From NCBI GenBank assembly GCA_020832135.1, contig JAFIFG010000032.1, positions 1-50,510 of the forward strand: 50,510 nt of DNA. Reading direction: 5' to 3'. Within the stretch, counting starts at the first letter, position 1, and each line of letters opens with the position of its first letter. This document shows positions 21,529-49,681 of the stretch, piece after piece. The stretch is from Clostridiaceae bacterium (GTDB lineage: Bacteria > Bacillota > Clostridia > Peptostreptococcales > Natronincolaceae). The notes under the pieces are model-generated. The model searched no databases. It had not been told where the DNA came from and saw only the letters and a list, made by a program, of their open reading frames with translations. A program made the position numbers and the translations under genes.

Positions 21529-21559
21529 ACACCTGCTTGATTTAGCAGGTGTTTTTTTT
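21529..21559. terminator. Intrinsic terminator after the malic enzyme gene
   Basis: ACACCTGCT and AGCAGGTGT form a perfect 9-bp stem around TGATTT, with eight T on the + strand. The T-run orients it for + strand transcripts, but the stem lies just past the stop of the leftward malic enzyme gene and may serve both. Confidence 0.65.
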
Positions 21560-31236: not shown

Positions 31237-31553
31237 TTATCTTTTTGATGGTGTTGGTAAGTAGGGATACATTTCTCCAGCCATACTTTGAATCGGCATA
31301 GTTTGCACCCATACCTTTCCAGGCCCAGTTAAGGTTGTCAAGAATAATCCTTCCCCACCAAAGAGAACATTACTAAAGCCCTTTACCATCTCTATATTCA
31401 TGTTTACAGTAGATTCGTACATGCCAACAGAACCAGTTTCCACCTTAATTGATTGTCCTTTTTCTAATTCTATTTCAACAGCCTCTCCATCAATCTCAAC
31501 AAAGGCCAACCCTTGTCCTTTGAGTTCCTGCATGATAAATCCTTCTCCCCCGA
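31237..31553 (-). pseudogene. AIM24/TIGR00266 family gene, 3' part (split by the mobile element)
   Basis: C-terminal part of an AIM24-family protein (about 104 residues). It starts at the element junction in [22 protein letters not shown], and includes the family motif [20 protein letters not shown] and the end PTPSKR. The frame is open into the element, where it reads VNRI before the GGEGF start, but the earlier domain is missing. An internal ATG at 31533 has GGGGGAGAAGG upstream and could start a short product. The missing 5' part lies at 49315-49681. Removing the intervening 17,761 bases at the CCGA core gives an in-frame gene of 228 codons, including the stop. Confidence 0.9.
31550..31553. 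other. Left attachment core
   Basis: CCGA at the junction between AIM24 3' sequence (left) and element sequence (right). The element continues with TTCTGTTTACTTATATTTG. It matches the CCGA of the right junction. Confidence 0.75.
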
Positions 31554-31900
31554 TTCTGTTTACTTATATTTGTTTACTATTAAAATACTGCCTAATATCA
31601 ATTTCCTATATAGTTTATATTCACTATTATATACTATGATTACCAAGAGAGTAATTTTCTCAGATATAGTAAGATAAGCTAATAATTATTTCTCTATATG
31701 TGTAACCTAATTCCTCGTCTATACCTTATATTTATGTCCCAAGATATTTGCATTTTTTGTTTCTTAATTTAATTACTAATCCAAGGATATCTTCGCCAAA
31801 CAGTATTATGCCATAATCATTCACTTGATTAGAACTTATATTTAAATGTGTTGGTAATTTTTAGAAATTAGTACTACACATTTCTATCTAATACAGTTTT
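31554..31900. other. Left end of the element, non-coding
   Basis: About 350 AT-rich bases between the left junction and the first small transcript. No gene is seen. It should contain recombinase binding sites, but no clear repeat shared with the right end stands out beyond TTATATTT close to each end. Confidence 0.45.
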
Positions 31901-32085
31901 TGTTATAATAAAATGTAGGCATATATATAGTATTACATTAAATAGAGGAGGGCTATACTTATGAACATTTTTCGAAGTCCGTCTAGTTGCTTCACAATTT
32001 CATCAAATAGAAAAAGCTTACAAATTATTGTAGAATGAGGTTTTGACTTATAGTATTGACTATAAACCAAAACCTCATTTTTTAT
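31901..32085 (+). ncRNA. Small transcript at the left end of the element
   Basis: An extended -10 (TGTTATAAT, 31901-31909) and, downstream, a strong terminator stem: AATGAGGTTTTG pairs with CAAAACCTCATT (32034-32079) around an inner TATAGT/ACTATA stem, ending in TTTTTT. The transcript would be about 170 bases. It contains a short ORF with a good ribosome binding site and may be a leader, a small mRNA or a regulatory RNA. Confidence 0.5.
31961..32038 (+). CDS. Short ORF, 25 residues
   Basis: ATG 31961 has AGAGGAGGG eight bases upstream, one of the better ribosome binding sites in the region. The product would be 25 residues (starting MNIFRSPSSCFTI), with no clear hydrophobic segment. Its stop lies in the terminator stem, so translation could influence the hairpin. 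No known family. Confidence 0.35.
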   Translation: MNIFRSPSSCFTISSNRKSLQIIVE

Positions 32086-32232
32086 TGTCTATAAATATAA
32101 ATAGATTTGAAAGGGGTGAGGTATATGTAAAACAACATGTTGAAACAAATTATTCTAAAATACAGCAATCCATAGTTAAGCTACTATAATTAGTAGATAT
32201 AAGAAAATATTTTTTATCAAGGAGGAATATCA

Positions 32233-32919
32233 TTGAAAAGTAAGAATAAACGTCCAAGTATGGAGGAAGCAGGTAAACTACTTCTTCAAGCAGTTACAAA
32301 TGGAGATTATGCTGCTAGTTCTACTGTGACAAGAAAGGAAATTTTAAAAAAAATACTACACGCTCCTACTAGAAGGTTAGAAAAGATATCAATGAAAAGT
32401 TTAATAAGTACTCCAGCTGAATGGAGGTTAATGCTACCAATATCAAAGGAAAAATTTATAAAAACTTTATACTCTATATTAATCCATGATTTATTTTACC
32501 CAATCATTGTATGGGAAAAAGATGATGGTAATTACATGATTCTATCGGGGTACCTACGTATTGATTGTTATAGAATCCTAAATAGTCTTCATGAAGATGA
32601 AAAAACACATGAAATTATATCAAATTTCAAAGATGTAAAATTACCTATAACGCTAGAAAACTTTAAAACTAGAGACTTCAATTATATTGAAGCTCTGATT
32701 TATGCAAAACATGAAATTAATGAACAACAAGCTTATGAAATCATAATAAATTCTAATTATCTTAGAAGAGAAGCTAATGAGAAATTAACTTCTAAGGTTT
32801 TAGACAAAAAAGTAGTTACAGCTGTCTACCACAAAGAATTAATGAATAAGATAGAATCTACTCTAAATAAAGAATTCCTTACTACTGACAAGTATAATAT
32901 CAAAAAAAATTTTACCTAA
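32233..32919 (+). CDS. ParB/sulfiredoxin-like domain protein (cargo)
   Basis: Protein of 228 residues with a ParB-like core: LMLPISKEKFIKTLYSIL, then FYPIIVWEKDDGNYMILSGYLRIDCYRIL, which fits the pattern of a ParB/Srx fold (conserved GxxR near the second motif, here GYLRID). The rest is helical and charged and resembles the DNA-binding half of ParB only loosely. The start is TTG 32233 with AAGGAGG upstream. ParB-like proteins bind CTP or nick DNA; in mobile elements they often act in partition or control. The function here is not known. It is the first cargo gene from the left end. Confidence 0.6.
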   Translation: MKSKNKRPSMEEAGKLLLQAVTNGDYAASSTVTRKEILKKILHAPTRRLEKISMKSLISTPAEWRLMLPISKEKFIKTLYSILIHDLFYPIIVWEKDDGNYMILSGYLRIDCYRILNSLHEDEKTHEIISNFKDVKLPITLENFKTRDFNYIEALIYAKHEINEQQAYEIIINSNYLRREANEKLTSKVLDKKVVTAVYHKELMNKIESTLNKEFLTTDKYNIKKNFT

Positions 32920-33082
32920 TATATACACCTGTAATAATTTGCTAACGAGATATAGTAAAAACCCTACAGTGAAAAATATCTTTTCTTTTGCTTAAAGAGG
33001 CATTAATGAGGCTCACAACTCAAGGTCCAATAAAAAATTTCTCGATAATAAAATATAAATTAACGGAATGGAGCCAAACTCA

Positions 33083-33469
33083 ATGATAATTAATTACGAA
33101 AACGAAGAACACCGAAAAAAAGTTTTAGGTCTGCTTAAAAAATATAACAAAATTCATTCTGAATCTAACAAAGTTGATATAGAGTACCTTTCAGCTTTCT
33201 TTCTTTTATCTACATCTTTGTTAAATCATAAAAAATTAGAGAAATATATTCATCCCTCTGGAATTGGTATAAATTTCCTAAAAATGGTAGAAGATGAATA
33301 TCTCAGTTCCTCAGAAGAGGTGATGATTAAGGTAGCTTGGAATCTATATAATAGTGATGGAGATATAAAACCTATAGAAATTATTCGTTTTCTTAGCAAT
33401 GAAAACTATAATTTAGTAATCCAAGCTATGGAACTTAGAAGAGTAAAGCATTATTTAGAAGAGTTATAA
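33083..33469 (+). CDS. DUF6075-like small protein (cargo)
   Basis: Protein of about 128 residues. The pattern ENEEHRKKVLGLLKK, AFFLLSTSLLNHKKLEKYI, YLSSSEEVMIKVAWNLYNSDG and IRFLSNENYNLVIQAMELRR matches the DUF6075 family as I remember it; the family's function is unknown and it is often found on phages and integrative elements. ATG 33083 has GGAG at nine bases and is preferred to ATG 33068. A perfect 30-base palindrome follows as terminator. It may be co-transcribed with the ParB-like gene, 160 bases upstream. Confidence 0.6.
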   Translation: MIINYENEEHRKKVLGLLKKYNKIHSESNKVDIEYLSAFFLLSTSLLNHKKLEKYIHPSGIGINFLKMVEDEYLSSSEEVMIKVAWNLYNSDGDIKPIEIIRFLSNENYNLVIQAMELRRVKHYLEEL

Positions 33470-33488
33470 AACCATTGATAAGTATAGG

Positions 33489-33518
33489 AAAGGAAATACT
33501 ATATATAGTATTTCCTTT
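33489..33518 (+). terminator. Palindromic terminator after the DUF6075-like gene
   Basis: AAAGGAAATACTATA and its exact complement form a 30-base palindrome (33489-33518) that would fold into a tight hairpin, with AT-rich flanks. Confidence 0.65.
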
Positions 33519-33922
33519 AATCCATCAAAGATGCAATACATATGGATGCACCCACTCTAGATTGAAGCTTGATATTTTGAAATGTAGCCCTTTAGAGCTT
33601 CTATATACTATGTCTCCACAAGGGCTACATTACTATATTTTGTGAAATATTTCCTGGTGAGTTGCTAAATACCCTTGTTTTAGTGTGAAAAATCTTGCTA
33701 ATAAATAAGCAGCTACTATTACACCTTAAGTTTTCCGATAAATCTATTAACCATATCTTTCACACCTTTGTGATTTCAATGCTTTTATAAAATTCCACTA
33801 ATCGGAATAAAACAAAAATTAATAAATTATTTTAGAATAGTCTTTTTGTTATCTATAGTTACCCCTTATCTATCTTACATAAATGAAAATAAGGGAGCTC
33901 TTTTATTCTATATTAGCTAACC
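33519..33922. other. Non-coding stretch with a 12-bp inverted repeat
   Basis: About 400 bases between the DUF6075-like gene and hsdR. AATGTAGCCCTT (33581-33592) and AAGGGCTACATT (33620-33631) are perfect inverted repeats with a 27-base loop, probably the end of the leftward hsd transcript. No gene is seen. Confidence 0.5.
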
Positions 33923-36916
33923 CTATGCCCTCTGATTCAAACTTTCATAAACTTCTTCGAACATAAAATTCATTACAGTATCTTTAAAATCTGTATCTTC
34001 AAGAATTTTCATGAAGAATCTTTCATTTTGTGTCATTCTATCTATAACAACATCAAGAAATGCTTTTTGGTAGCTAAACCTAAAGTTATCCTTGGTATTA
34101 TTGTGAGCTTTCTGCACTAAGTCTTGATTATTTACGATGTCTTCTTTAATTTGGTCATAGGATAGTTTATCTGTTTCTGTAAATTCTGTTGCAAATTTAT
34201 CATTAAGCCTTTCTATAATCTCCGATAGCCGCTCTTTTTCTTCCTCTTGTCCTTTACCTTTCCCATAGGATGTGGGCTTTAGTTCTGCACCTTCATCTAC
34301 TTCTAGAGATATACTCCCTTCAAAAACTTTATCGTTTCTATAATATTGTAGGGCTACATCATCAGCTAGGTATACTCCTTCCGAAGCATTTTTAGGCAAT
34401 TTCTTTAATAGAAAATTTAAATATACATATAACTTATGTAATTCCACATCTGCAAAGGGTCCTATTTGCAAAATAAAAGAGTAGGTTCTTATAAACTTAC
34501 TTGATGCTCCCTTAAATTCATCTTGATTTTCCTTATCTAACTCTTTTTTATACCTAACAACTGCTTTATCGAGAATAGCGTTTAATTTTTCTTGAAGTCT
34601 AGCGGTTTTCTTCTTGTCACTAAATTCTAATTCACATACTTCATTAATTTCTTCTTCCGTATAAATCTGACATGCATCTAATTCCCTCTGGAGGTCATAA
34701 AGTATGTTAGGATTAGTCATGCTTTCTAATCCCGTTACCTCGTAATAGGGCTGAAATGCATTCTGTATATCCTCTGCTTTATTAACAAAGTCAAGTACAA
34801 ATGTGTCATTTTTACCCTTACATGTTCTATTTAACCTTGATAAAGTTTGTACAGCCTTTATTCCATCTAACTTTTTATCAACATACATTGTATGTAGTAG
34901 AGGCTCATCAAAACCAGTCTGATACTTTTCTGCTACAAGAAGAACTTGATATTCATCGGTATGGAACTTCTCAGGTAGTTCTTTTTCACCAAAACCATTC
35001 ATCTCAACTTCTGTATAACTTTCACCAGATTTGTCCTCAACTTTTCCTGAAAAGGCTACAAGGGTATTTAAATCTCTATAGCCCTTCTCCTTAATGTATT
35101 TATCAAAGGCTTGCTTATATTTAACAGCATGCAAGCGGCTACCTGTTACCACCATCGCCTTAGCTCTACCACCAATTTTCTGTCTTGTAACTTGCCTAAA
35201 ATGCTCTATCATAATTTCCGTTTTCTGTGCTATATTATGGGGATGAAGGGAAACATATTTAGCCATTTCTTTATATGCTTTTTTACTTGATACCTCTGGG
35301 TCCTCTTCTATTTTCTTTGCAATTTTAAAGAAGGTTTTATAAGTGGTATAGTTTTTTAATACATCTAATATAAAACCTTCTTCTATAGCCTGCCTCATGG
35401 TATAGGTGTGAAAAGCCTCTGGTTTTCCATCCTTACCAATAGTCCCGAACTTTTCTATAGTCTTAGCTTTAGGTGTAGCAGTAAATGCGAAGAAGGATAT
35501 ATTATCTTGTTTACCACTTTTTATAATAACTTCGATAATCTTTTCTTCTATATCTTCTAAATTATCTTCATCAATTCTATCGTTCTCTAGAGCTTCTTCT
35601 AATGTCTTGGCGGATAAAATATTCGTCATGGCGGTTGCAGCCTTACCCCCTTGAGAACTATGGGCTTCATCTATAATAACAGCATATTTTCCTTTTTCAA
35701 ATTCTCCAACCTTCTCTATAATGAAGGGGAATTTTTGTAGGGTAGTAATAATAATTCTGGTGTTGTTAACAATGGCATCTGCTAATTGGTTAGAATCTTT
35801 ATCAATTTTCTCCACCATACCTGCTTTATGCTCTAATTGATAAACAGCATCTTGAAGTTGTTTATCTAAAACCCTTCTATCTGTTATCACTATTACAGAA
35901 TTGTATATGGGCTCATTGTTACTATCATGAAGTTTTGCAAGTCTATGGGCTAGCCAAGATATAGAATTGGTTTTTCCGCTGCCTGCTGAATGCTGCACCA
36001 AGTAGTTAGTTCCAACTCCATTTACTCCTACATCCTGTTCTATTTTTCTGACAACATCAAGCTGGTGGTATCTGGGAAAAATTACTGTCTCTCTTTTATC
36101 TATAATTTCACCTGTACTATCCTTTATGTCTTCTTTATTTATGTACACAAATCGAAAGAGGATGTCTATAAGGCTATCCTTCTGAAGGATATACTTCCAT
36201 AGATAGGATGTTCTATAATCATTATAAACTACAGGGTTCCCCCTACCGCCTTTAGAGCCTTTATTGAACGGAAGAAAAAATGTTTTTTCTTTGTTCAGTT
36301 GTGTAGTCATATAAACTTCGTCTGGGTCAACTGCAAAATAAACAATATTTCTTTTTTTAAATTGAAATAGTAATTCCCGCGGGTCCCTGTCTTTCTTATA
36401 CTGCTTTATTGCATCATCTACCGTTTGATTGGTTAAAGGGTTTTTAAGCTCTAATATTGAAATGGGAAGTCCATTTAAGGAAATCATCATATCAACACTA
36501 TTCTTATTCTTTTCGCTATAATATACTTGTCTACTTACAGTGAATATATTTTTATCGTACAGGTCTGCTAATAATTGATTTAAGGAGCTAGGTGGTTTAT
36601 TATAAGCCAATTTTAGAGTGACACCATAATCCTTTATACCATGTCGTATGCAATCAATCATACCTCTAGCACTTAATTCCTTTGTAAGCCTATCTAATAT
36701 TTTAAGTTGATAGTTTTCTTTATATGCTTTTTTTAGTCTTTCTAACTGCTTAGGTTGACTTGCTTCCAGGAAGCTAAAAAACTGTTCTACATCTATAGCA
36801 TATTTCTTAAAGTCCTCTAAAGCTTTCCCCTGTAATTGCCTTTTCTCATATCCAGATTCTATTAGACTGTCTTCTATATTCGTCTCAAAACCTTTTTCTG
36901 TATAATCTATTGCCAC
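33923..36916 (-). CDS. hsdR: Type I restriction enzyme, HsdR subunit
   Basis: Motor and nuclease subunit of about 997 residues. The PD-(D/E)xK nuclease lies near the N-terminus (VDMMISLNGLPISILELKNPL). Helicase motif I is HSAGSGKTNSISW, the DEAH-type motif II is VIIDEAHSSQGG, and motif III FFAFTATPKAKT, with motif VI near QTLSRLNRTCKGK. The start is probably GTG 36916 (MAIDYTEKGFE), with GGGGGG about seven bases upstream; a GTG at 36931 abuts AAGGAG. It is the last gene of the hsdM-hsdS-orf-hsdR operon. It restricts unmodified DNA together with HsdM and HsdS at the cell interior; no break in the frame is seen, so it is likely active. Confidence 0.9.
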   Translation of the reverse strand: MAIDYTEKGFETNIEDSLIESGYEKRQLQGKALEDFKKYAIDVEQFFSFLEASQPKQLERLKKAYKENYQLKILDRLTKELSARGMIDCIRHGIKDYGVTLKLAYNKPPSSLNQLLADLYDKNIFTVSRQVYYSEKNKNSVDMMISLNGLPISILELKNPLTNQTVDDAIKQYKKDRDPRELLFQFKKRNIVYFAVDPDEVYMTTQLNKEKTFFLPFNKGSKGGRGNPVVYNDYRTSYLWKYILQKDSLIDILFRFVYINKEDIKDSTGEIIDKRETVIFPRYHQLDVVRKIEQDVGVNGVGTNYLVQHSAGSGKTNSISWLAHRLAKLHDSNNEPIYNSVIVITDRRVLDKQLQDAVYQLEHKAGMVEKIDKDSNQLADAIVNNTRIIITTLQKFPFIIEKVGEFEKGKYAVIIDEAHSSQGGKAATAMTNILSAKTLEEALENDRIDEDNLEDIEEKIIEVIIKSGKQDNISFFAFTATPKAKTIEKFGTIGKDGKPEAFHTYTMRQAIEEGFILDVLKNYTTYKTFFKIAKKIEEDPEVSSKKAYKEMAKYVSLHPHNIAQKTEIMIEHFRQVTRQKIGGRAKAMVVTGSRLHAVKYKQAFDKYIKEKGYRDLNTLVAFSGKVEDKSGESYTEVEMNGFGEKELPEKFHTDEYQVLLVAEKYQTGFDEPLLHTMYVDKKLDGIKAVQTLSRLNRTCKGKNDTFVLDFVNKAEDIQNAFQPYYEVTGLESMTNPNILYDLQRELDACQIYTEEEINEVCELEFSDKKKTARLQEKLNAILDKAVVRYKKELDKENQDEFKGASSKFIRTYSFILQIGPFADVELHKLYVYLNFLLKKLPKNASEGVYLADDVALQYYRNDKVFEGSISLEVDEGAELKPTSYGKGKGQEEEKERLSEIIERLNDKFATEFTETDKLSYDQIKEDIVNNQDLVQKAHNNTKDNFRFSYQKAFLDVVIDRMTQNERFFMKILEDTDFKDTVMNFMFEEVYESLNQRA

Positions 36917-36951
36917 ATCCCTTCCCCCCACTCCTTTTATTACATACCCTT

Positions 36952-38064
36952 TTAATCAAACCTACTTATATATCTTGTTAGTACCCATCCTTTGATTATT
37001 TCATCGTTATCCATATCTACATATTCTATCAGTGTCCAATTTTTATTCTTGTATAGTATGTTCACTATATTCCCTTGATGTAATTTATAGATAACAGCAG
37101 CTTCCATCCTTTTATTATTTCTTACAGGTAGCTCCTCAATAGTGACAAACCTGTATTTATTGTACACTTCTTTTTTTACAGCACAATTCTCAGTATGAAT
37201 ATTTATAGTTATGTTGACTTGTTGTTTTATTTCTTTATTAATTGTCCTTACTTCAGTCTCCTCATTATGAATTCTTACGTTATTAATTGCAGAAGATACT
37301 TCATCAACAACATAATTAGCTGCATAGGGAATGGCAAATTCTATCACAGCTACATAAATTATAAATGCAATACATGGATGCTTTTCTTTAAAAATCATTA
37401 GTAATTTCCATATTCTTTGCTCAAAAGATATATCTTCTTTTAAACAGTCTTTAGCACTTTCTATTTCTTCCTCTAGAGCTTCATCATCTTCGTAAACTTC
37501 ATCTCTATTTTCCCATATATCTCCTAATAAATCCTCTATGTTTAATTGCAGTGTATTTTGAAATTGATAGCTATTAAATAAACCTCTATGCTGTTCTAGA
37601 ATTCCACTTATGCCCCCCATACGCTCCATCATCTGCAAGGTAGGTTTAAATGCTTCTTGTACAGCACTCATTGATTTCATTATTTCAGAGGTAGGTCTGA
37701 GTGCATTATGAACGATTCCTACTGATTTTATCATCTCACCTGCTGATTTAAATGATTCTTCCTGTAACACTGATGTAGATGCCATCATTTTTGCTGCTAC
37801 ACCATCTATATGCTGACTTACTCCTAAACCTAAGATATTTCTCATACGTGCTACTGAATCTTGTTGCATTGCCTCTACAGCACTTATCATTTGACTCGCT
37901 GGGCTATACGTCTTCTTTAGTGCTCCTATTGAGTTTAGTATCTCCTGCGTTGGTCTAAAAGCTTTCTGTATTGTTCGTGTAGACTGAACACTTTCCATAG
38001 CCTGTGATTTAAGTATTCTATCTAATTTTATAGCTGTGCCCCCTACAACTCTATTTTCACCCAT
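36952..38064 (-). CDS. Membrane protein with internal repeats and SH3-like C-terminus, inside the hsd operon
   Basis: Protein of 370 residues, not recognised as a family. Residues 30-150 hold a helical region with repeated units: FRPTQEILNSIGALKKTYSP, then LRPTSEIMKSMSAVQEAFKP, separated by QMISAVEAMQQ- and MIKSVGIVHN-type segments. An acidic stretch follows (EDDEALEEEIE). A transmembrane segment lies at about 229-250 (CIAFIIYVAVIEFAIPYAAN). The tail from about 303 (VTIEELPVRNNKR..., ending KGWVLTRYIS) looks like a bacterial SH3 domain. ATG 38064 has GGAGGAT upstream. It sits 20 bases after hsdS and just before hsdR, so it is translated from the same messenger. Its role is unknown; possibly it senses DNA entry or envelope damage, or guards the restriction complex (inference). 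Confidence 0.7.
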   Translation of the reverse strand: MGENRVVGGTAIKLDRILKSQAMESVQSTRTIQKAFRPTQEILNSIGALKKTYSPASQMISAVEAMQQDSVARMRNILGLGVSQHIDGVAAKMMASTSVLQEESFKSAGEMIKSVGIVHNALRPTSEIMKSMSAVQEAFKPTLQMMERMGGISGILEQHRGLFNSYQFQNTLQLNIEDLLGDIWENRDEVYEDDEALEEEIESAKDCLKEDISFEQRIWKLLMIFKEKHPCIAFIIYVAVIEFAIPYAANYVVDEVSSAINNVRIHNEETEVRTINKEIKQQVNITINIHTENCAVKKEVYNKYRFVTIEELPVRNNKRMEAAVIYKLHQGNIVNILYKNKNWTLIEYVDMDNDEIIKGWVLTRYISRFD

Positions 38065-38084
38065 TTTATCCTCCTGTTAAGCTT

Positions 38085-39389
38085 TTAATTTATATCTCTT
38101 ACATCAATTTTTCCTGTAACTGCTTCTGATATAAGGGATTGACGGTATTCTTTTAGTTTTTGGATTTGTTCATTGATAAGGTTTATACTGCTATCAATTT
38201 CTTTAACCTTATAATTAAGATACTCTATAATCTCTGACTGCTCATCAATCTTAGGTAAAGGATATATAAAGTTAACAAAAGTATCTTGATATAGATGCTT
38301 TATCGTAGAACCTGTTTCCATATGTTTTATATATGTTTTGAACATTTCAGAAGCTAACATGTAATACATAAATTCCGTTGTATATTCTTGGTTTAAACAC
38401 CTAGTCACGAAAATTCCACTATTTAGTATTGCTTTTTCTGGCTTATTCTTAACAATCGCTACTTTTCCAATTGTGCCATCTTTAGTAATCAACAAATCAT
38501 TCTCTTTTAGTTGTATAGCTGGTGCTTCATTATACCTTTCTTCACTAATATGATAGCAACTTTCCCAAGTTACAATTCCATCTTTAAAATCTGTTCCAGT
38601 CACCAAATATGGTCCTTCGTCTGTAAATTCATCTGACCTTAATCCTTGCCAACCAATTCTTCCTTTTACATAGGATGTATACTTTATTTTGCTAAGCTCC
38701 CAATGTTCTGGTATGTCTCCAATCCATTCAACACCAGAATCCTTCATTTTTACACTATCATTCAATCCTTTTGTAACTGCTTCTGTTATAATAGCTTGTC
38801 TTTTTTCTTCTAGTAAAGTTATCAGTTTTTCTTTGTCAGTTATGAGAGCATCTATTTTAGATGTTATATTATTTAGGAAATAAGCAATTTGAATTTGTTC
38901 CTTAAGACTTGGCGACATAATTTTAATATTTCTTATATGTTCCCAGTTGGCTCTTGGCATTTTAGCTCCATAGGTAGAAGAATTGACTTCATTTATGAAT
39001 CTGTCATCTAACATTATATATTTTAAGTACTCACCATTTTTTGTTTCTAACACCAATAGCTCAGAGGTGCATTTTCCATCAGAATTAGCTACTATACATT
39101 TTTTTAAATACGGTCTAAGCTTTCCAAATAAAACATTCCCACTAAAGTATCTTAATGCTTCTCCTTCTGCTTCCACATCTAAATTATCATAGCCTTCTAT
39201 AATATTTCCTGTTTCTTTCTCAATATGTTCTAACCCTAAATACTTCAATTCAACGTTATGTTGTGCTACCTTATAAGTTATTGAATTAGCTATATACTTT
39301 AGCCTATTAACCTTCCATTGCTCTGGTATTTCACCTATCCACTCAACTCCACTTTCCTTATATCTATCATACCTCTTATATTTAACCAT
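38085..39389 (-). CDS. hsdS: Type I restriction enzyme, HsdS specificity subunit
   Basis: Specificity subunit of 434 residues with two target-recognition domains. Each half begins with a related segment: YKESGVEWIGEIPEQWKVNR near residue 10 and MKDSGVEWIGDIPEHWELSK near residue 215, followed by variable recognition sequence and a conserved coiled-coil spacer (LITDKEKLITLLEEKRQAII, and EQIQKLKEYRQSLISEAV). ATG 39389 overlaps the hsdM stop by one base (TAATG). It sets the DNA sequence methylated and cut by the complex; the actual recognition site cannot be read here. Confidence 0.92.
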   Translation of the reverse strand: MVKYKRYDRYKESGVEWIGEIPEQWKVNRLKYIANSITYKVAQHNVELKYLGLEHIEKETGNIIEGYDNLDVEAEGEALRYFSGNVLFGKLRPYLKKCIVANSDGKCTSELLVLETKNGEYLKYIMLDDRFINEVNSSTYGAKMPRANWEHIRNIKIMSPSLKEQIQIAYFLNNITSKIDALITDKEKLITLLEEKRQAIITEAVTKGLNDSVKMKDSGVEWIGDIPEHWELSKIKYTSYVKGRIGWQGLRSDEFTDEGPYLVTGTDFKDGIVTWESCYHISEERYNEAPAIQLKENDLLITKDGTIGKVAIVKNKPEKAILNSGIFVTRCLNQEYTTEFMYYMLASEMFKTYIKHMETGSTIKHLYQDTFVNFIYPLPKIDEQSEIIEYLNYKVKEIDSSINLINEQIQKLKEYRQSLISEAVTGKIDVRDIN

Positions 39390-41407: not shown

Positions 41408-42097
41408 CTCCTTCTGTCTTTACATATTTAGTTATTTTTTCCTTTTACAACATTAAATAGACCATTTTATGGTTATTTATAATAGAATTTATTCATTAAA
41501 ATAATCCTAAAGTAATATTTCTATATAATTGCATCTTTTCCTTCAAAATATGGCATTTCATGACACAAAGTATCCTATTGAGCTTATTGTTAAGTATTTT
41601 AAAATCATTAAATTACTCCTGAAATATAGTGTAAGTCAAGTTATTTAACAGCTGATACTTTCTAATTAGTGTATTTCCTCTCTTTAGTTTTATGTTTTTG
41701 TCTTACAACAATATTAAACTATTGATTATCTTTGATAGTACACTCTATGATTACCTTTAACAGTATCTATGTAAAGTAGCTAGAAAAAGTCGCTATAGTA
41801 AAAACATATATCGTTCTGCCACTTAGCCCTATCTCTGTATCTGCTTTCTTTTGGTTTCATTTATAGCATTTAGCACTATCAGACTTTTTTATTTTTTCAA
41901 ACTTATAGTTTGCTCCCTCTATGCCTCTACCTAAACCCATACTGATTGTACTTGGCTTAGGTTTATAAGACCTTTGCCAAATCAGTATGCTTGCTTTAAC
42001 ATCTATATTATAGCTTTCTGATTCCATAGATTAGAATTATATTTGTAAAGGAATAGGGGTTTCATGAATAATAAATAAGGTATTTCCCCAAAATATC

Positions 42098-42438
42098 ATT
42101 AGTTGTAACTGACCTAAGTCACTAATTTAAACAGTTTCAAAAAATTCCACCCAGTGAAAATGGTGGAATATAATTAACTATCACCAATTTGGTGTCATTT
42201 GCTTTTCTGTTCTTACAACTAATTTTGTCCTAATCCAGTTTCTTACCAAGGTCTTTCAATATGCACTTCAAGCCTATTAAAGTGAAATAGATAAGTGTAA
42301 ATATTATTAATTTGATGGATTTGCTTTTTATCTATTAAACTTTTTAGATTCCTTTGTTTTTAACTATTTTTATTATATAACACCAATTAAGTGATATTTA
42401 AGCTCTAATGAATTCAACTCTTAAAGTATAAGATAAAA
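42098..42438. repeat. Diverged direct repeat, copy A
   Basis: Copy A begins AGTTGTAACTGACCTA and ends near TATAAGATAAAA. It aligns with copy B in the same order: GTGAAA...TGGAATAT, then CACCAATTTGGTGTCATTT, AAGTGAAATA, TTAATTTGATGGATTT, and CACCAATTAAGTGATATTTAA. Identity is only partial, by eye. Confidence 0.6.
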
Positions 42439-42540
42439 ATCAGCTATTACAATAGTTTCTCATTAATCAAGATAGTGTTTTCAATAGCATTCACAGGATG
42501 ATGGAGCAATCAAAAAATGAAAAGATTTTTTCGAAAAAAT

Positions 42541-42950
42541 TACTAGTTGTAGCTGCCCTACGTCCTTGATTTCAAGTGTTTTAAAGAATACTACCAAGTG
42601 AAAAAGATGGAATATATTAAATAATCACTAATTTGATGTTATTTATTTTTCTATCCTTGCCACTAACGTTGACCAATTCAGATTCTTATTAAAATCTTTG
42701 AATGTATTATATGGAGCTTATTTAAGTGAAATAAAGAAACTTAACTATTGCTAATTTGGTGGATTTCATACCCTCTCTATCATGCTTTTTAGCTTCCTTC
42801 ATTAAAGGTGCTGCCATACCTTACTTTTCAATTATTTTAACCTCTTTTTATTTCTATCTGTAATATTTTTAACCAATAAACTTTATAAATAGCACCAATT
42901 TAGTAATATTTAAAATTTCATTGGTTCAGGACCTTAAAATCTAAAATAAA
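42541..42950. repeat. Diverged direct repeat, copy B
   Basis: Copy B begins AGTTGTAGCTGCCCTA and ends near TCTAAAATAAA. It shares blocks with copy A, including CACTAATTTGATGTTATTT, AAGTGAAATA, CTAATTTGGTGGATTTC and CACCAATTTAGTAATATTTAA. It is about 70 bases longer than A. Confidence 0.6.
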
Positions 42951-43021
42951 GGTGAACCATCATTAATTAGATGTAAATATTTTCCTATCCCCGAATTGCC
43001 TTTAACTCAATATAAGCAACT

Positions 43022-43053
43022 AAAAAACATCTATACATTTATAGATGCTTTTT
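43022..43053 (-). terminator. Terminator of the recombinase operon
   Basis: On the - strand, AAAAGCATCTAT pairs with ATAGATGTTTT around AAATGT, ending in TTTTTTAG. It lies about 65 bases after the tnpC-like stop. Confidence 0.8.
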
Positions 43054-43115
43054 AGTTTCCAGTTAATTCTAATGCATTATTTTGGCTGTTTTGCTGGAAC
43101 CTTTTTTAGAAGAAA

Positions 43116-43583
43116 TCATAATTCTGTACCTAATCCAAATATCTTTAATTTTTTATAAAGTATTTGCATTTCCCCTATTAGCTTTTGATTTTTAATTTTT
43201 TCTTTTTCAAGTGCTACTTCAAGTGTTTCAATTCTTAATTTTTTAGCATCTAAATCTTTTTGTAGGTTCCTAGCTTTATTGTGTGATTTCTGTAGTTCAT
43301 TCTCAATCATTATTACCATATTTCTATAATTTTTTTCATGATTCTCCCTCTTTATAACCTTAGCATCTTTAAACCTTCCTATCTTATTGTCTTTTAATAC
43401 TTCAATTATATGAGGTTTACTGAAAGTTGCCCTCGACAATCCTGTTCTCTCTATAAGCATACCAGTTTTAATATTATCGTACCCTAAACTTTTAAGTTCA
43501 TCTATAGCTTGCTGTACCTTATTAATTGATTCAAGTCTTTGCTTTTCTTGTTTCTCCATTAAAGATTTAGGTAATTTCCTCAC
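43116..43583 (-). CDS. TnpC-like HTH/coiled-coil protein (DUF6262 type)
   Basis: Protein of 155 residues with an N-terminal helix-turn-helix (INKVQQAIDELKSLGYDNIK, TGMLIERTGLSRATFSKPHI) and a long C-terminal coiled coil (from about residue 85; IENELQKSHNKARNLQKDLD). This matches the small accessory proteins of Tn554 (TnpC) and other elements, annotated as DUF6262. In Tn554, TnpC affects frequency and orientation of insertion. The start is GTG 43583 with GAGGTGAT upstream, overlapping the upstream recombinase by 17 bases. It is the last gene of the operon. Confidence 0.72.
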   Translation of the reverse strand: MRKLPKSLMEKQEKQRLESINKVQQAIDELKSLGYDNIKTGMLIERTGLSRATFSKPHIIEVLKDNKIGRFKDAKVIKRENHEKNYRNMVIMIENELQKSHNKARNLQKDLDAKKLRIETLEVALEKEKIKNQKLIGEMQILYKKLKIFGLGTEL

Positions 43584-45183
43584 CTGATATCACCTCACAT
43601 TCTTCCCTCTGCTTTGTATTTATTATAGATTTAATTTTTTTAATGATATTTTCACATGCCCTTAAATTATACATGGCATTTTCCTTCAGAGCTGGATGTT
43701 CTTTAAATAAACCTATCTTCCGTGTCCATTGCTTTACTTCTTCTTCAAAATAATCTAAATCTTCAGCATTAGGAATGAAATAATCACAATTTAAACAATC
43801 ATATGTTTTATTTTTGCATCCTGTAATATCACTACATATACCATATTTCAATTTATGTGCTCTAGGATTTCTTAGTAATCTTTCCTCTAACGTATTATCA
43901 AGCTTTAAAATTTTTCCTTTGAAATATACTTCAGTTGTATTTTTATTATCTTCGTTTTCTTTTTTTCTATCATGTACTAACCGCTGTTTTTCTTTAAGCT
44001 TTTCCTTTTGACTATGATAATAAGACTTAATAATCATTTCTTCATTTTTGTGAGAAGTCAATTCTTTAACTTCTATAGGTGAAAATCCTTCATATAATCT
44101 ATCAGTAATAGCAGTATGCCTAAATTGATGGGATGTTATAGTGTAAATCCTTCCTTCTTTATCTGAAATACCGCATCTTTCACAAATTCTATTTAATTGG
44201 TATGTAACAATTTCAGGTTTAAGTATTATAACATCTTTCTCTTTACTAAACTTAATTTGCCCTGTTCTTTCATAGAGCTTATAATGAAACCTCCTTTTCC
44301 TATATGTAAATAGTAATCCCGTTTCCTCCTCATCAAGTTTATTCTGAGCTTGAAATGCCTCTTCTTGCTGTTTTTTAATTAAATCTAGTAAATATGCTCC
44401 ATGTCCATTATTGCTTAGATGAATTGCATTTATTTCTGGTTCTATATATCCCCCATTTTGTTTCCAAGAAGGAATGAAAATAGCATGGCTATCTTGATAT
44501 GCTTTAATACACTCTATATTCATTCCTATAATTTCACTTATTCTCAAAGGAATGCTTCTTGCTATCCAATAGAATGTTCTTATATAATCTGGGATTGGAG
44601 ATTCTTCATCTTTAAAAACGCAGTCCAATTGACTTGTAATATGTTCTGGAATATACTTATCTGGGCTTTTAATATCTTCTGTTTTAAAGGGGTTATCTTT
44701 TTTTACAGGATTCTTTTTATTAGCCTCTGTATAATTTATTAATCTATCAAAAAAAATATATAGTGTTGAACAATAGCCATGTTTAGTAAAGGTAGAGGTA
44801 TATTTATCATCTAAGTATTTGTAATAATCACTAATAATGCTCTTGTTTACATGCAAGATATCTATACCCTTATAATTTTTCTCTAGAAACTTTAAAAAAG
44901 TAGAAATGCCACTAGTATTACCTCTTAATGTTGATAATTTTTTCCTTTCATTATACCTAACTAATATAATAACTTTAGCAATTTTTTTATATTTCTCTGG
45001 AATTTTGGTGAAATAAATTTTGCAGCTATGATTTAATTGGGTTGCATTTCTGACTAATTTATCACATTCCCAGATATCATCTTCAAACTGAATATTGTTC
45101 CCCATCCAAAAAGTTGATTTCTTTAAATTGTCGATTTCTTTAAAACTATAATCTTTTTTTATAATAACGTGGTTTTTCAACAA
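43567..45183 (-). CDS. Tyrosine recombinase, third of the operon
   Basis: Site-specific recombinase of about 538 residues. The catalytic domain has Arg in IPLRISEIIGMN, His-x-x-Arg in TSHQFRHTAIT, His in LTSHKNEEM, and the nucleophile Tyr in KSYYHSQ, a complete set. A Cys-rich tail (CSDITGCKNKTYDCLNCDYF) looks like a zinc-binding module, as in the second recombinase. The start is TTG 45183 with GAGGAGTG ten bases upstream. Tn554 itself has only two recombinases, so this is an additional, TnpB-like member. All three may be needed for integration. Confidence 0.83.
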   Translation of the reverse strand: MLKNHVIIKKDYSFKEIDNLKKSTFWMGNNIQFEDDIWECDKLVRNATQLNHSCKIYFTKIPEKYKKIAKVIILVRYNERKKLSTLRGNTSGISTFLKFLEKNYKGIDILHVNKSIISDYYKYLDDKYTSTFTKHGYCSTLYIFFDRLINYTEANKKNPVKKDNPFKTEDIKSPDKYIPEHITSQLDCVFKDEESPIPDYIRTFYWIARSIPLRISEIIGMNIECIKAYQDSHAIFIPSWKQNGGYIEPEINAIHLSNNGHGAYLLDLIKKQQEEAFQAQNKLDEEETGLLFTYRKRRFHYKLYERTGQIKFSKEKDVIILKPEIVTYQLNRICERCGISDKEGRIYTITSHQFRHTAITDRLYEGFSPIEVKELTSHKNEEMIIKSYYHSQKEKLKEKQRLVHDRKKENEDNKNTTEVYFKGKILKLDNTLEERLLRNPRAHKLKYGICSDITGCKNKTYDCLNCDYFIPNAEDLDYFEEEVKQWTRKIGLFKEHPALKENAMYNLRACENIIKKIKSIINTKQREECEVISGEEIT

Positions 45184-45196
45184 ATTATGTCACTCC

Positions 45197-47458
45197 TCAA
45201 TAGTCTTGGCTTTCAATTTTACTTATTATATCTTTATATAGATTCAAAAAATGCACTTCTTTTTCGTACTCCCTAAAATCCCTATAAACATCATAGTTTA
45301 TTTCTTCCTTTCTATATATTTCTTCTAACTGATAAACTATTTTCTGCTGTTCATCTTTTAAACTAATCCATTCAGACAAATATTTTTTACCTGTACATAG
45401 CTTATTGCATTCTGTACAATTGCTTTTACCTACTTTCTTGCCACATTCTCCTTCTGATATATGCTTTGTACAATAGCCTAATAAAACATTTCGATTATTT
45501 AATCTGAAATCGATATACAGGGCTTTTCTTTCCTCTTCGGTATACAGCTGTAGTTGTTCATCCCCTACCGCAACTTCAAATTTTTTCTTGAAGAAATCAG
45601 TATTAAGTTGTTTTAGAGTCATTCTCCTAACTTCATCATAATATTTTCTTGATGTCCTACTGCTTAAATGACCTAGCTGATAAGATATCTCTGCTCTAGT
45701 TGCTCCATTTTCTATCATATTTGTAATAGTGGTTTTTCTAAACTGCTTAGTAGTCAAATGCCATAGTTCTCCATCATAATCTCTAATATCATACTTTTTA
45801 ATTAGCCTTCTAATTGCATTCAAAAACCCCTTCCCTTCTGTTAATGCAGGTTTATAATATTCTCTCTTATGAATAAATATAAAGGTTAACAAGTGCTCTT
45901 CTCTAAGTTCTTTTGTTCTTTCGCATTGTTCTTTAATGACCTTAGCTATTTCCTTGGGTATTATTATTGTATTTTTTTCTGACCTCGATTGTTTTCTAAT
46001 GTGCATTAATGATTTATAGGGAGTATATTTTAATAACATTAAACTTTCCCACTCCGTACTTTCTAAACAGTCTTCCTCTAGGTGAATTACTTCCTTTAAT
46101 CTTAGTCCAGTTACTGAGAAAATATAATATATAAGTTGATACCTTGGCTCTAGTTCTTGGAGATGCTTCATTATTTGTTCATCAACTATATCTGGTATAA
46201 TTTCAGTACCTTTATGCATATTGCTAGTATTGTAAAACGCATAGGTATTAAATAAATTATTTTTAGGTATTTGTGTAATCAGTTTATTTTTTTTAGCATA
46301 ATTAATTAAAAAATCTGTAGTCTGTCTACAAATTCCTATAATCTTCGTCATCGTGGCTACACTTACACCATTGTTACTATCCTTTTGTTCATAATGCTTT
46401 TTATAATCATTTTCTAAATGTGCCACTAGCGCTCTTATATGCTCTATTTTGACTTTTGCTAGGCTGTCTATTTTAGGGTCATACCTGACAAAAAAATTTA
46501 GCGCAACTATAAGTTCATAAAATGCTGTATCATTAAGTGATTTATTTTTTTCAAATCTATACTTCATAAATAGTTTTGCTTCATACCTCAAATGCTCACC
46601 TTGTATTTTTGTAAAATCGTAAGTAGCTGAATGAAGACTTGGTCCGTGCATCCAATAAAATTTCCAAATATCATTGTTTATTTTCATTTGCTGATAATTG
46701 GTTGTAGTAAAAATTTTACATTGTTTATTATATTCTTCATCAACATACTTACTAATTACATTAATATATTTTTCTACTAATACCCTACTATTTTTTCTAC
46801 TTATAACGATACTTCTTCCAAAAATCATCTTACTTATTTTAGTTAAAGTAATAGTTTCTCTTTGCTCAGTAAATTTAGAACCAAAATAATTGATATAGTT
46901 CTTTAACAAGTCCTTATCAGCGGAAAATACTACATCATGAACTATATATTCAGGAATTGTTTTTGTTAACTGGTCTAGTGCTCTAGTCTGCTCCATATAT
47001 TGCAGAATAATTTTTCTGCTGTAGCATTGAAATTGCTTTTCAATAAGTTCCTTTATAGCATCACTATAAATAGCTATATTATTTTGTCTATGCGACTTTT
47101 TACCAATTATCATCTTTAATACGTATCTCCACTGCCCTTTGTACTTTTTTTTGCAGGAAAAATATTGTTCTTCTAAACATTTTATTAGAAAGTAATCTAT
47201 ATACGGGACAATTATTTCACTAGAAAATAGGAAGAATAACTTTAATATATTTGTTGTTCCTATCTCTTCAGTAAGTTTAATTAAGTCCAACTTGTTGTTC
47301 AGCTTGTATTCAATATTATGAATCAATTTTCTTAGCAACTCTTCTGATTCGTATTTACACATTTGATAATCTAAATTAACAAATCCATCATTAATTTTCC
47401 ATGTTGAATAACAGTGTCGTATTTTAGGGTTATATTTTTCAACTAGTTTTATCTCCAT
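45197..47458 (-). CDS. Tyrosine recombinase, TnpB-like
   Basis: Large recombinase of 753 residues. An N-terminal region of about 400 residues precedes the catalytic domain: Arg in VTGLRLKEVIHLEED, the HxxR position in TTKQFRKTTIT, where Lys replaces His, His in YQLGHLSS, and Tyr in SRKYYDEV. A tail with CTKHISEGECGKKVG and CTECNKLCTG may bind zinc. Its length and order after the TnpA-like gene match TnpB of Tn554 (630 residues). The Lys substitution may reduce or alter activity. ATG 47458 overlaps the upstream gene by 20 bases. Confidence 0.82.
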   Translation of the reverse strand: MEIKLVEKYNPKIRHCYSTWKINDGFVNLDYQMCKYESEELLRKLIHNIEYKLNNKLDLIKLTEEIGTTNILKLFFLFSSEIIVPYIDYFLIKCLEEQYFSCKKKYKGQWRYVLKMIIGKKSHRQNNIAIYSDAIKELIEKQFQCYSRKIILQYMEQTRALDQLTKTIPEYIVHDVVFSADKDLLKNYINYFGSKFTEQRETITLTKISKMIFGRSIVISRKNSRVLVEKYINVISKYVDEEYNKQCKIFTTTNYQQMKINNDIWKFYWMHGPSLHSATYDFTKIQGEHLRYEAKLFMKYRFEKNKSLNDTAFYELIVALNFFVRYDPKIDSLAKVKIEHIRALVAHLENDYKKHYEQKDSNNGVSVATMTKIIGICRQTTDFLINYAKKNKLITQIPKNNLFNTYAFYNTSNMHKGTEIIPDIVDEQIMKHLQELEPRYQLIYYIFSVTGLRLKEVIHLEEDCLESTEWESLMLLKYTPYKSLMHIRKQSRSEKNTIIIPKEIAKVIKEQCERTKELREEHLLTFIFIHKREYYKPALTEGKGFLNAIRRLIKKYDIRDYDGELWHLTTKQFRKTTITNMIENGATRAEISYQLGHLSSRTSRKYYDEVRRMTLKQLNTDFFKKKFEVAVGDEQLQLYTEEERKALYIDFRLNNRNVLLGYCTKHISEGECGKKVGKSNCTECNKLCTGKKYLSEWISLKDEQQKIVYQLEEIYRKEEINYDVYRDFREYEKEVHFLNLYKDIISKIESQDY

Positions 47459-48590
47459 TTGACCTCTTCCTCTTTTTATTTATTTTCTCAGCCGCTGTTT
47501 TAGCAATAATTTTATTTTCATGATTCCTATAAGGCTCTAAACTATCAATGCTTTTCCAACCCATTATTTCTAATATCTGTGCATCACTTAAGTTATCCTC
47601 AGGATACAGAACTTGATGTTTGAGCAAATCCATAGTCTTCGTACTTCTTCCACTATGTGTTCTAATTTTTTCGGGTGATATTCCAGCCCTTGCAGCACAT
47701 TTTTTCAATACACCATAATAATTTCTATAACCTATTGACAGTCCCTGATATTTACCTTTTTTTATATTTATGAATAGGTATTCTATAATTTTATGAGACT
47801 CAATCTCTGCATCAGCTCTTTCTGTAAAAATATAATCATCAATTACTTTACATGTAGCTTCTGGTAATTGTATACTTCTTAGCCATTTGCTTTTAGACCT
47901 ACTTGGTTTTAACTCTTTATCGTCGCTACTATAATCTTCTAATTTAATACTTATTACTTCATCTATTCTCATTCCTTCTAACATACATAAAAACATCGCT
48001 TTATCTCGTAAATTATTAAAATTGCTTAATATTGCTTCAATTTCTTCATCGGTATACCATTTTATATATTCCTTAGTTGGCTTTAATGTTTTAATATATA
48101 CATCAATTATTGAACTATAATCTTTGCTCCATATTTGTCCATAATAATATGATTTTTTTGCTCCTATCTGTGAAACTTTACGTTTAAATTCTACATCTAA
48201 GTTCTCAACTTCATCTTCTAACCATTTATAAAATCCAGTAATAACCGATAGGTTTTTTCTAATTGTTCCATAGGTTACTGATGCTTTAAAGCTAAGTACA
48301 TCTACATCATACAGATTTTTATATATTAAAAACTTAATGTAATTTTTAATGTCTTTATTACTGGCGTATAAATAGCTGATATCCTTTAAGTCTAAAAAAT
48401 TTAGGAATTTAACTAATTCATTAGCATATGTTTTTCCAGTATTTAAACACTTAAAACTTTTTTCATCTAACCATTCATTAACGTCAAATAATGGTATTCC
48501 TCCATCTGTTATAAACCATCTATAAATACTTTCCTCTTCACCTGTTGGTAGCTTAGCTAATACAACTTTGAATCTCTTCTCATTCATCAT
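47439..48590 (-). CDS. Tyrosine recombinase, TnpA-like
   Basis: First recombinase of the operon, 383 residues, close to TnpA of Tn554 (361). It has an N-terminal SAM-like core-binding domain and a catalytic domain with Arg in LEGMRIDEVISIKL, HxxR in RTHSGRSTKT, Trp in MGWKS where the second His usually stands, and Tyr in SLEPYRNHEN. A Trp at that position occurs in active family members. ATG 48590 has GGAG upstream. The downstream gene starts within it. A strong promoter and a terminator hairpin lie upstream, possibly for attenuation. Confidence 0.85.
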   Translation of the reverse strand: MMNEKRFKVVLAKLPTGEEESIYRWFITDGGIPLFDVNEWLDEKSFKCLNTGKTYANELVKFLNFLDLKDISYLYASNKDIKNYIKFLIYKNLYDVDVLSFKASVTYGTIRKNLSVITGFYKWLEDEVENLDVEFKRKVSQIGAKKSYYYGQIWSKDYSSIIDVYIKTLKPTKEYIKWYTDEEIEAILSNFNNLRDKAMFLCMLEGMRIDEVISIKLEDYSSDDKELKPSRSKSKWLRSIQLPEATCKVIDDYIFTERADAEIESHKIIEYLFINIKKGKYQGLSIGYRNYYGVLKKCAARAGISPEKIRTHSGRSTKTMDLLKHQVLYPEDNLSDAQILEIMGWKSIDSLEPYRNHENKIIAKTAAEKINKKRKRSNGDKTS

Positions 48591-48840
48591 TTTTGCTTAC
48601 TCCTTTAATCTTAAATGTTTTCTTTTGCATCTGATTTAATTTCTCATCCATAAACTACATGAATAAATAGCTATCCTTTCCTTTTAAAACGAGTAAAGAG
48701 TGTAAATTTAAAGATTTAGCAGTTGTAAAACCTTTAAATTTCTCTTATCGTCTCAAGTGAATGTTACCTATACCTTATTGCCAATAGCAGTTGTCTTTGA
48801 GATTATCAATTAGCTTCTTCGTGCATTTTTCAAAAAAAAC
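48591..48840. other. Leader between the attenuator hairpin and tnpA
   Basis: About 250 bases with no ORF that I can support. It may be the leader of the recombinase messenger if transcription reads through the upstream terminator. Confidence 0.4.
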
Positions 48841-48911
48841 AAGCAGGATTTACTTTTGCCTTAAAACAACACTTAGTCGTTTTTTTTTCTAGGCAAAAAT
48901 AAATCCTGCTT
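48841..48911 (-). terminator. Strong hairpin upstream of tnpA (terminator/attenuator)
   Basis: Arms of 21 bases (48841-48861 and 48891-48911; 20 of 21 match) flank a 29-base loop that can pair further (AAAACGAC with GTTGTTTT). On the - strand a run of eight T follows (after CTTG). It lies about 35 bases past the expected start of transcription from the promoter at 48947-48975. Confidence 0.75.
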
Positions 48912-48946
48912 AATTATAATTAACTACTATATTTACTTTTTCAAAA

Positions 48947-48975
48947 ATTCTACTATAATAACTACAGTTTGTCAA
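48947..48975 (-). promoter_or_regulatory. Strong promoter upstream of the recombinase operon
   Basis: Read on the - strand: TTGACA (48975-48970), a 17-base spacer, and TAGAAT (48952-48947). It is one of the best sigma-A matches in the window. The transcript would start about 48940 and reach the hairpin at 48911-48841, making a small RNA of about 110 bases, or tnpA messenger on readthrough. Confidence 0.72.
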
Positions 48976-49310
48976 TATAGGTAATTGGATATTAAATATC
49001 TAATCCATCTAGTTAAATAAATTCTATCTGTTTTTCTGTAACATATGAACAGTAATACATTATAGTAGTAACCTATAATATTTTTACCTCCCCCCTTTAG
49101 GTTATATTGTTTATTTTTTCTTTTTCGAGAATAAGTATCTACTGATAAAAATATTAATCAGTTTTTTGTTTGGCTTATATTACTGCCTCTTTTTCTAATA
49201 TAGTATATATTTTAGTAATTACTCACCATTATGCAAAGTAGTTATTAGAATATATTGATTTGTGTTTTTGATTATAATATTATTATAGTTTCTATCAACT
49301 AAATATAACT
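48976..49310. other. Right end of the element, non-coding
   Basis: About 335 bases up to the right junction. On the - strand a purine-rich AAAGGGGGGAGG (near 49087-49098) resembles a ribosome binding site, but no start codon follows at the right distance. No gene is supported. Confidence 0.4.
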
Positions 49311-49314
49311 CCGA
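49311..49314. other. Right attachment core
   Basis: CCGA at the junction between element sequence (ending AAATATAACT) and AIM24 5' sequence (AGAACCCAGAGCC, + strand). It matches the left core. Confidence 0.75.
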
Positions 49315-49681
49315 AGAACCCAGAGCCTAAGCGTTTTTGAAAGGCAATCTCTAATTCTACACCTTCTGTACTACAAAGAAAAGCTCTTTTCTGACAAACA
49401 ATAGATTGTTTACTAACATCTATTGCTACAATATGTCCTGGAAATGTATGGCCAAAGGCAATACATTCTCCATCTTTTTCAGCTTTGAAAAAATTTAAAA
49501 ATCCGCTTTCTCCCATCATCTTTCTTTTGAAAAAGCCACCAACACCACCATCCATACTGGTTTTCATTTCTATTGTACTGTCCATCCATTTCATTGCCCC
49601 AGCTTGAGATTTGATGACCTCTCCTTTTTTAAGTGTTAATTGTACTAGTGGCATGACACTGCCTAAGATTTTATATTCCAT
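49315..49681 (-). pseudogene. AIM24/TIGR00266 family gene, 5' part (split by the mobile element)
   Basis: N-terminal part of an AIM24-family protein, about 122 residues: MEYKILGSVMPLVQL, GEVIKSQAGAMKWMD and the TFPGHIVAIDV and EIAFQKRLGSGFFG segments typical of the family. The true start is ATG 49681, after GAGAGGAG; upstream codons to 49705 lack a site. The frame passes the junction and ends after five residues in the element (stop at 49295). The natural next residues, [10 protein letters not shown], are found at 31549 on the same strand. A truncated product could be made from its own promoter. Confidence 0.9.

Follow-up and report, generated by a model that had tools for sequence, protein, structure and literature searches.

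A 17.76-kb insertion with a three-recombinase operon splits an AIM24 gene in a clostridial draft genome

Introduction

What has divided the AIM24 gene of a Clostridiaceae bacterium (GCA_020832135.1) into two pieces, and does the DNA that lies between them belong to a mobile element? The stretch analyzed here, hereafter the window, comprises 50,510 nucleotides of contig JAFIFG010000032.1, and in it the two pieces, both on the minus strand, are separated by 17.76 kb of inserted DNA. We consider that insertion quite likely to be a site-specific mobile island of the GInt/Tn554/SE kind, which would move via a circle and which carries a type I restriction system. The general kind of element is known, while the AIM24 target and the recombinase set—three catalytic proteins plus a DUF6262-like one—look new or unusual. 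The locus adds defined ends and a target gene to what can be said of a set of clostridial mobile islands, of which one has a restriction system, and bears on the relationships among GInts, SEs, RITs, and Tn554, which relationships the SE authors call still vague (PMC10214605).

Results and Discussion

The split AIM24 gene

The 5' part of the gene was located at 49315-49681 (minus strand) by PF01987 (E 4e-35) together with its translation, and the 3' part at 31237-31547 (minus strand; PF01987, E 8e-25). On the Pfam AIM24 profile the 5' half (49310-49675, minus strand) covered positions 1-122 and the 3' half (31297-31572, minus strand) positions 115-205 of 205, the two together spanning the AIM24/TIGR00266 family model end to end. 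Each half scored above the Pfam cut-off and below the whole-protein cut-off of TIGR00266, which latter result is expected because the pieces are halves. A genome-wide profile search of this genome, a 4.0-Mb draft in 155 contigs with a contamination value of 2.29, yielded these two halves as the only AIM24 matches. When the 5' fragment is read on into the element, the product is a truncated protein of 128 amino acids ending in GFFGVIFS; when the flanks are rejoined with either of the 6-bp blocks described below, they encode an AIM24 protein of 227 amino acids, in agreement with the 228 codons, stop included, proposed in the initial annotation of this DNA, and collinear with the 226-amino-acid protein of the closest relative.

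A search of 60 genomes with the 5' fragment, the own genome included, matched 37, that is, 36 of the 59 others; of the relatives' AIM24 loci 19 were fetched and 14 inspected. The point at which the window gene is broken was unbroken in all 14, the residues there being FFGGEGF in 12 and LFGGEGF in two. In the closest relative by AIM24 fragment (G010; 91% amino-acid identity), the intact AIM24 gene is followed by a gene that we take to be dinB-like, the same neighbor as in the window; and, aligned across the junction, positions 9304-9675 of that locus correspond to 49682-49311 of the window and 9674-10959 to 31551-30297, so that one continuous stretch stands against two window pieces with zero bases gained or lost and with CCGA lying on CCGA. 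The complementary profile halves and the contiguous G010 locus confirm that an AIM24 gene is split by an insertion, as the initial annotation had claimed, and the rejoined translation as well as the independent genomes bear out its further claim that rejoining restores FFGGEGF in frame. The window holds a natural knock-out of AIM24, a family for which we know of no bacterial role.

That the assembly placed two unrelated AIM24 fragments on one contig would be conceivable in a draft genome of 155 contigs with the contamination given above; but the halves complement each other to the base and on one strand, an uninterrupted stretch of G010 accounts for the AIM24 5' part, the 3' part, and the gene that follows, and a recombinase operon stands at one of the junctions, so that we regard an artefact of this sort as very improbable.

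The ends of the insertion

Between the 6-bp blocks the insertion extends from 31554 to 49308 (17,755 bp); the ends first proposed for it held, as did the size of 17,761 bp, which figure counts one 6-bp block as part of the insertion. The element contains 30.1% G+C, versus 34.2% and 31.6% in the flanks. The block at the left attachment site (attL) lies at 49309-49314 (minus strand; TCGGAG, or CTCCGA on the plus strand) and that at the right one (attR) at 31548-31553 (minus strand; TCGGGG, or CCCCGA on the plus strand). By eye, direct repetition at the ends is limited to these blocks, which agree at 5 of 6 positions. The left block is bordered by the terminal repeat C (49296-49308, minus strand; TTATATTTAGTTG), and the right block by C' (31554-31566, minus strand, given as TTCTGTTTACTTA on the plus strand), 9 of the 13 bases matching between the two.

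CCGA, which had been noted at both junctions, is indeed present at 31550-31553 and at 49311-49314. As the core, we rejected that sequence as too short and too common, the window containing 62 occurrences against 66.45 expected; four such base pairs are therefore no evidence by themselves, and the related elements suggest a 6-bp block instead of 4 bp, within which block CCGA lies.

The recombinase operon

On the AIM24 5' side of the element sits an operon of four genes on the minus strand, here called A to D. Gene A (47439-48590) encodes a tyrosine recombinase of 383 amino acids (PF00589, E 4e-16), gene B (45197-47458) a large one of 753 amino acids (PF00589, E 1e-12), gene C (43567-45183) one of 538 amino acids (PF00589, E 2e-11), and gene D (43116-43583) a small DUF6262-like protein of 155 amino acids (PF19776, E 1.3e-5, below the cut-off). 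Genes A and B overlap, as do C and D, and a gap of 13 bp separates B from C. Gene A has a single match within its own genome.

Upon alignment of each window protein with ten relatives, the residues R208, K233, H312, R315, W345, and Y354 of gene A proved invariant in the window and all ten. In gene B, R453, R574, H597, and Y607 were invariant, with the histidine of the HxxR motif replaced by K or R, and by M in one protein; in gene C, R214, K241, H352, R355, H378, and Y388 were invariant wherever aligned, the L046 protein ending before the last four. The first arginine and the tyrosine are consequently kept in A, B, and C alike. A homologue of gene D was found in nine of the ten relatives.

Comparison with known systems

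The likeness to GInts, which we draw from published descriptions rather than from GinABCD sequences, consists in a four-gene recombinase operon at one end with three integrase-fold proteins and a small one, in a variable cargo, in site-specific insertion, and in a proposed 6-nt staggered cut, Firmicutes members being mentioned as well (PMC5385486). GInts of Escherichia coli, moreover, are reported as carriers of defense systems (PMC10121019). By contrast, GinC is described as devoid of the first catalytic arginine, whereas A, B, and C of the window all keep that residue and B is devoid of the HxxR histidine; GInts have imperfect direct repeats of 10-17 nt, whereas the window repeats only the 6-bp block; and their targets are probably not fully inactivated, whereas the window target is cut in mid-gene (PMC5385486).

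With respect to Tn554, gene A is 26-27% identical over 91% of its length to staphylococcal records, one of which is annotated as the tnpA of Tn552-II, and gene B aligns over 44% to the tnpB of Tn552-II; the tnpA homologue is first in the operon, and a two-recombinase operon of Priestia ends in a DUF6262 protein, much as ours ends in a DUF6262-like one. Insertion within a coding sequence is shared too, and the unequal short blocks of the window would fit the carriage of the donor block to the right end that is described for Tn552-II; this transposon also carries tgl, just as a target-gene copy is present in several of the related elements (PMC12486829). Tn554, however, has the three genes tnpA-tnpB-tnpC, compared with four in the window, three of which are recombinases, while Tn552-II involves 7 bp and a YolD-like target instead of 6 bp and AIM24 (PMC12486829).

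The SEs resemble the window element in the four-gene operon, in the 6-bp block that is unequal at the two ends, and in the combination of one ordinary with one large recombinase; their imperfect inverted repeats, of 13-19 bp, may have a counterpart in the terminal repeats, which match at 9 of 13 bases in the window, in a register that is not unique, and at 7-12 of 13 in four relatives. The Tfp of SEs, in contrast, lacks the catalytic RHRY residues, whereas gene B keeps R453, R574, H597, and Y607, and their authors found SEs only in Gammaproteobacteria (PMC10214605). The RITs, finally, likewise have three consecutive recombinase genes, whose products all possess the catalytic tyrosine, but the window has the fourth gene D, proteins of 753 and 538 amino acids versus 315-410 in RITs, and a terminal match of only 9 of 13 bases versus inverted repeats of 34 bp (PMC10214605). 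Gene D stands in the place of GinD, Srap, or TnpC. As judged from the aligned sequences, the operon is, in the strict sense, neither that of a GInt nor that of an SE, no recombinase being without the first arginine or the tyrosine, nor is it the three-gene operon of Tn554.

Related elements and their junctions

Gene A relatives were sought in genome samples of the family, the order, the class, and the phylum, which samples overlap. Gene A had no match within the family, where 19 further genomes were searched (E up to 1e-15), and was matched in 3 of the 324 others of the order (E up to 1e-20), in 3 of the 390 others of the class (E up to 1e-30), and in 2 of the 397 others of the phylum sample (E up to 1e-25), in one of them at 34% only. 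A scan of genome contigs with an alignment-based profile produced 12 loci, several genomes contributing more than one; a scan with the single protein produced no match. Of three records from a phage collection, one showed relatedness at 45%; among viral contigs, 84 stretches fitted a pattern, none of which encoded a gene A relative, and an AIM24 junction pattern had no match there. The identity of gene A was 42-48% in full-length matches, and wherever the contig was long enough B, C, and D succeeded A in the same order. Three of these loci (L049, L050, and L052) contain near-identical elements, with 92.9-95.7% DNA identity over 11-14 kb, although the DNA flanking L049 shares no more than 69-78% identity with the flanks of L050 and L052, and one genome, G520, harbors several copies; alike copies with unlike flanks, together with those several copies, therefore point to recent movement or spread in this family of elements.

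Both ends could be read in eight relatives (L029, L037, L045, L047, L049, L050, L052, and L062), only the left end in L030, L038, L040, and L041, and only the right end in L039 and L051, while L028/L044 and L046, whose ends were not resolved, are left out of the junction set. In the eight, as in the window, the blocks lie in conserved codons of protein genes, and the left and right blocks, though often slightly unequal, specify identical or similar amino acids when read in the frame of the target: GTGCTG/GTATTG in L037, ATTTTG/ATCCTT in L049, GCTGTT/GCAGTA in L047, GTGATG/GTGCTG in L029, ATTCTG/GTCATG in L050, ATTTTG/GTCCTC in L052, and GCAGTC on both sides in L062; in L045, read by eye, 7 bp (TGAACGG) are common to both sides, with the 6-bp block within. 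The terminal repeats, scored in four relatives besides the window, matched at 12 of 13 bases in L037 and L047, at 10 in L049, and at 7 in L029. One block, GTGCTT, occurs in G520 both at the right end of L039 (contig C4) and at the left end of L040 (contig C9); the transfer rule discussed below would allow such an agreement, which is, however, a single 6-bp coincidence across contigs.

As for the targets, the left ends of L029, L030, L037, L038, L040, L049, L050, and L052 lie in a small gene, at the codons before P-T, which gene is carried by conjugative-element-like DNA; for L047 and L062 the site is D-S-A-V, again in a gene of that kind. That kind of gene, as carried by L042 and L043, matches DUF6133 in Pfam, the assignment being based on these two loci only. 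A further site seems to be common to L041 and L051, and yet another is used by L045; we take the targets of L045 and L041 to be cytosine methyltransferase genes, as their motifs would have it. The right part at L051 matches PF00145, and the left part of the L045 target had no match in Pfam or NCBIfam. A DUF6133-like gene of their own stands upstream of gene A in L029, L030, L037, L042, L043, L047, and L062, as if to replace the broken one, a situation that may be compared with the tgl of Tn552-II.

AIM24 as a target

AIM24 was matched in 123 of 391 genomes of the class, the own one included, and among these 123 the insertion break at profile positions 115-122 was found in the own genome only. 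In G410 the AIM24 gene is broken between profile positions 98 and 115, but with its pieces adjacent, and the partial matches in G378, G069, G375, and G211 end at other points. Among loci L024-L053, several of which stop before the far end of the element, AIM24 occurred only as the intact G010 locus (L031). We accordingly discarded AIM24 as a recurrent target, there being no second case in the related loci or the class genomes, and what was searched does not show AIM24 to be a habitual one. The initial annotation had called AIM24 unfamiliar as a target, and we too found no report of its use by an integrase in the titles and abstract openings of the AIM24-family literature, so that it seems to be a new target gene.

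These counts bear also on the possibility of a developmental switch, in which AIM24 would be restored on purpose in one cell type, as in the developmental excision of the sigK skin element. Excision would give the exact protein, and the genome search turned up no second AIM24 gene; nevertheless, this is a single case, elements of this kind move between genomes, and no other AIM24 gene was broken at that point among the 123 AIM24-bearing genomes. We know of no role for AIM24 in sporulation, and deem such a switch highly unlikely.

Proposed movement

In the island that we propose, operon ABCD would produce the three tyrosine recombinases together with a small protein that assists them; these would cut at the 6-bp block bounded by the imperfect inverted repeats, and the ends would join into a circle keeping one of the blocks, which circle would then insert into a target gene at conserved codons, in this case those for (F)FGG(E) of AIM24. 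In the SEs, the target's 6 bp remain on the intA side and those of the donor come to lie on the far side (PMC10214605), and Tn552-II is reported to do likewise with 7 bp, a minority of its circles holding the other block (PMC12486829). Transferred to the window, this rule would leave the target's own TCGGAG on the gene-A side and the donor's TCGGGG on the far side, and the host gene would before insertion have had GGA at the first glycine. Since TCGGAG and TCGGGG are synonymous in the AIM24 frame, the previous home of the element was probably also an AIM24 gene, as far as one site can indicate. Several relatives having two readable ends, the rule is testable by sequence alone.

A different possibility is an ordinary integrative element that is cut out and pasted in—an integrative and mobilizable element, a phage satellite, or a degraded integrative and conjugative element—with three integrases, and whose excision would restore AIM24. 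Tyrosine recombinases, precise ends, and an AIM24 gene restored with either block would all suit that alternative, as would the empty site detected in three GInt strains (PMC5385486). A search of ten element proteins (three antisense open reading frames being left out), however, gave no match to relaxase, replication, capsid, or excisionase families, and the four-gene operon with its unequal 6-bp blocks fits elements for which copy-out has been proposed; we therefore judge an ordinary cut-and-paste element to be unlikely, and the movement of the island to be probably of the copy-out type, in which an empty site may never appear. SE circles carry the left 6 bp only, and their formation leaves no empty site behind (PMC10214605); and since SEs and several GInts circularize without a detectable empty site (PMC10214605, PMC5385486), that site might be undetectable even were the window element active at present, so that a missing empty site would not refute mobility.

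Several points weigh against a mobile island. The match of 9 of 13 bases between the terminal repeats is weak, its chance probability being 0.0096 in the fixed register, 0.018 when the best of three registers is taken, and 0.0028 by comparison with random positions in the element; three other choices of register and length among 72 also score 9, for which reason the register of the window block rests on the relatives. No close relative of the element, and none in AIM24, appeared in any of the searches made; and the transfer rule comes from other elements and is applied here by analogy.

Going further, and tentatively, one might imagine that the window element stands for a clostridial branch of its own among copy-out islands, equipped with a DUF6262 protein besides its three catalytic recombinases; the members would favor conserved two-codon motifs in protein genes, and their travelling blocks would remain near-synonymous through the return of each lineage to one and the same gene, one lineage having AIM24 as a habitual home and permanent knock-out; such a branch strikes us as possible rather than probable.

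Control signals of the operon

A promoter-like site (TTGACA-17-TAGAAT) was found by a promoter scan at 48975-48947, and between it and gene A, some 250 bp before the latter, lies a hairpin with a 22-bp stem followed by a T run (48841-48911, minus strand; fold z -9.35, with 0 of 200 shuffles as stable), a possible leader terminator, which is absent from the list of the terminator scan, probably owing to the loop limit of that scan. The scan did find a terminator-like hairpin across the AIM24/element junction (49327-49307, minus strand; one found, 0.1 expected in shuffles), at which hairpin transcription of the AIM24 5' fragment may stop.

The start region of gene A was folded in eight chosen loci. 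In six of them a hairpin covers the ribosome-binding site and reaches or includes the presumed start codon (z from -2.9 to -9.5; L029, 3935-3996; L042, 435-493; L043, 440-500; L047, 9950-10003; L049, 9940-10003; L062, 2190-2246), whereas no such hairpin was found in L045 (z -0.9) or in the window, where z was +0.3. The six hairpins suggest that translation of the recombinase is shut off on transcripts that start outside the element; in the window, we hypothesize that the promoter-like site, the stem, and the junction terminator could keep host transcription from activating the recombinases.

Cargo and other contents of the window

On the minus strand, the cargo comprises the genes of a type I system: the methyltransferase hsdM (39389-41407; PADLOC MTase_I, E 1.5e-297; TIGR00497 below cut-off), the specificity subunit hsdS (38085-39389; PADLOC Specificity_I, E 1.6e-123), and the restriction subunit hsdR, of 1002 amino acids (33923-36931; PF04313 over the cut-off; TIGR00348, E 1.3e-61, below cut-off; PADLOC REase_I, E 4.4e-35). 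Between hsdS and hsdR, at 36952-38064 (minus strand), a protein of 370 amino acids matches SH3_3 weakly (PF08239, E 8.7e-6, just below the cut-off), and its N-terminal half looks repetitive. The plus strand contributes a DUF6075-like protein of 133 amino acids (33068-33469; PF19552, E 5e-4, below the cut-off) and one of 228 amino acids (32233-32919) with no Pfam or PADLOC match. The element holds no AIM24 copy of its own. The window yielded no tRNA, and 28000-50510 had no match in Rfam. In the 1.7-kb stretch between gene D and hsdM, which is without long open reading frames, a 153-nt repeat occurs twice (42083-42679), 74% alike and 444 bp apart.

Elsewhere in the window, the names dinB, mnmH, agr, and malic enzyme are labels that we assume for the respective genes. 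The region 18482-21190 presumably resembles an agr-type quorum-sensing locus, with AgrB-like and AgrD-like proteins, a kinase, and a regulator, which last is in two overlapping frames (20457-20708 and 20672-21190). The gene at 21558-22769 we take to be malic-enzyme-like, and a frame of 211 amino acids at 12626-13261 resembles, by eye, the C-terminal half of that gene.

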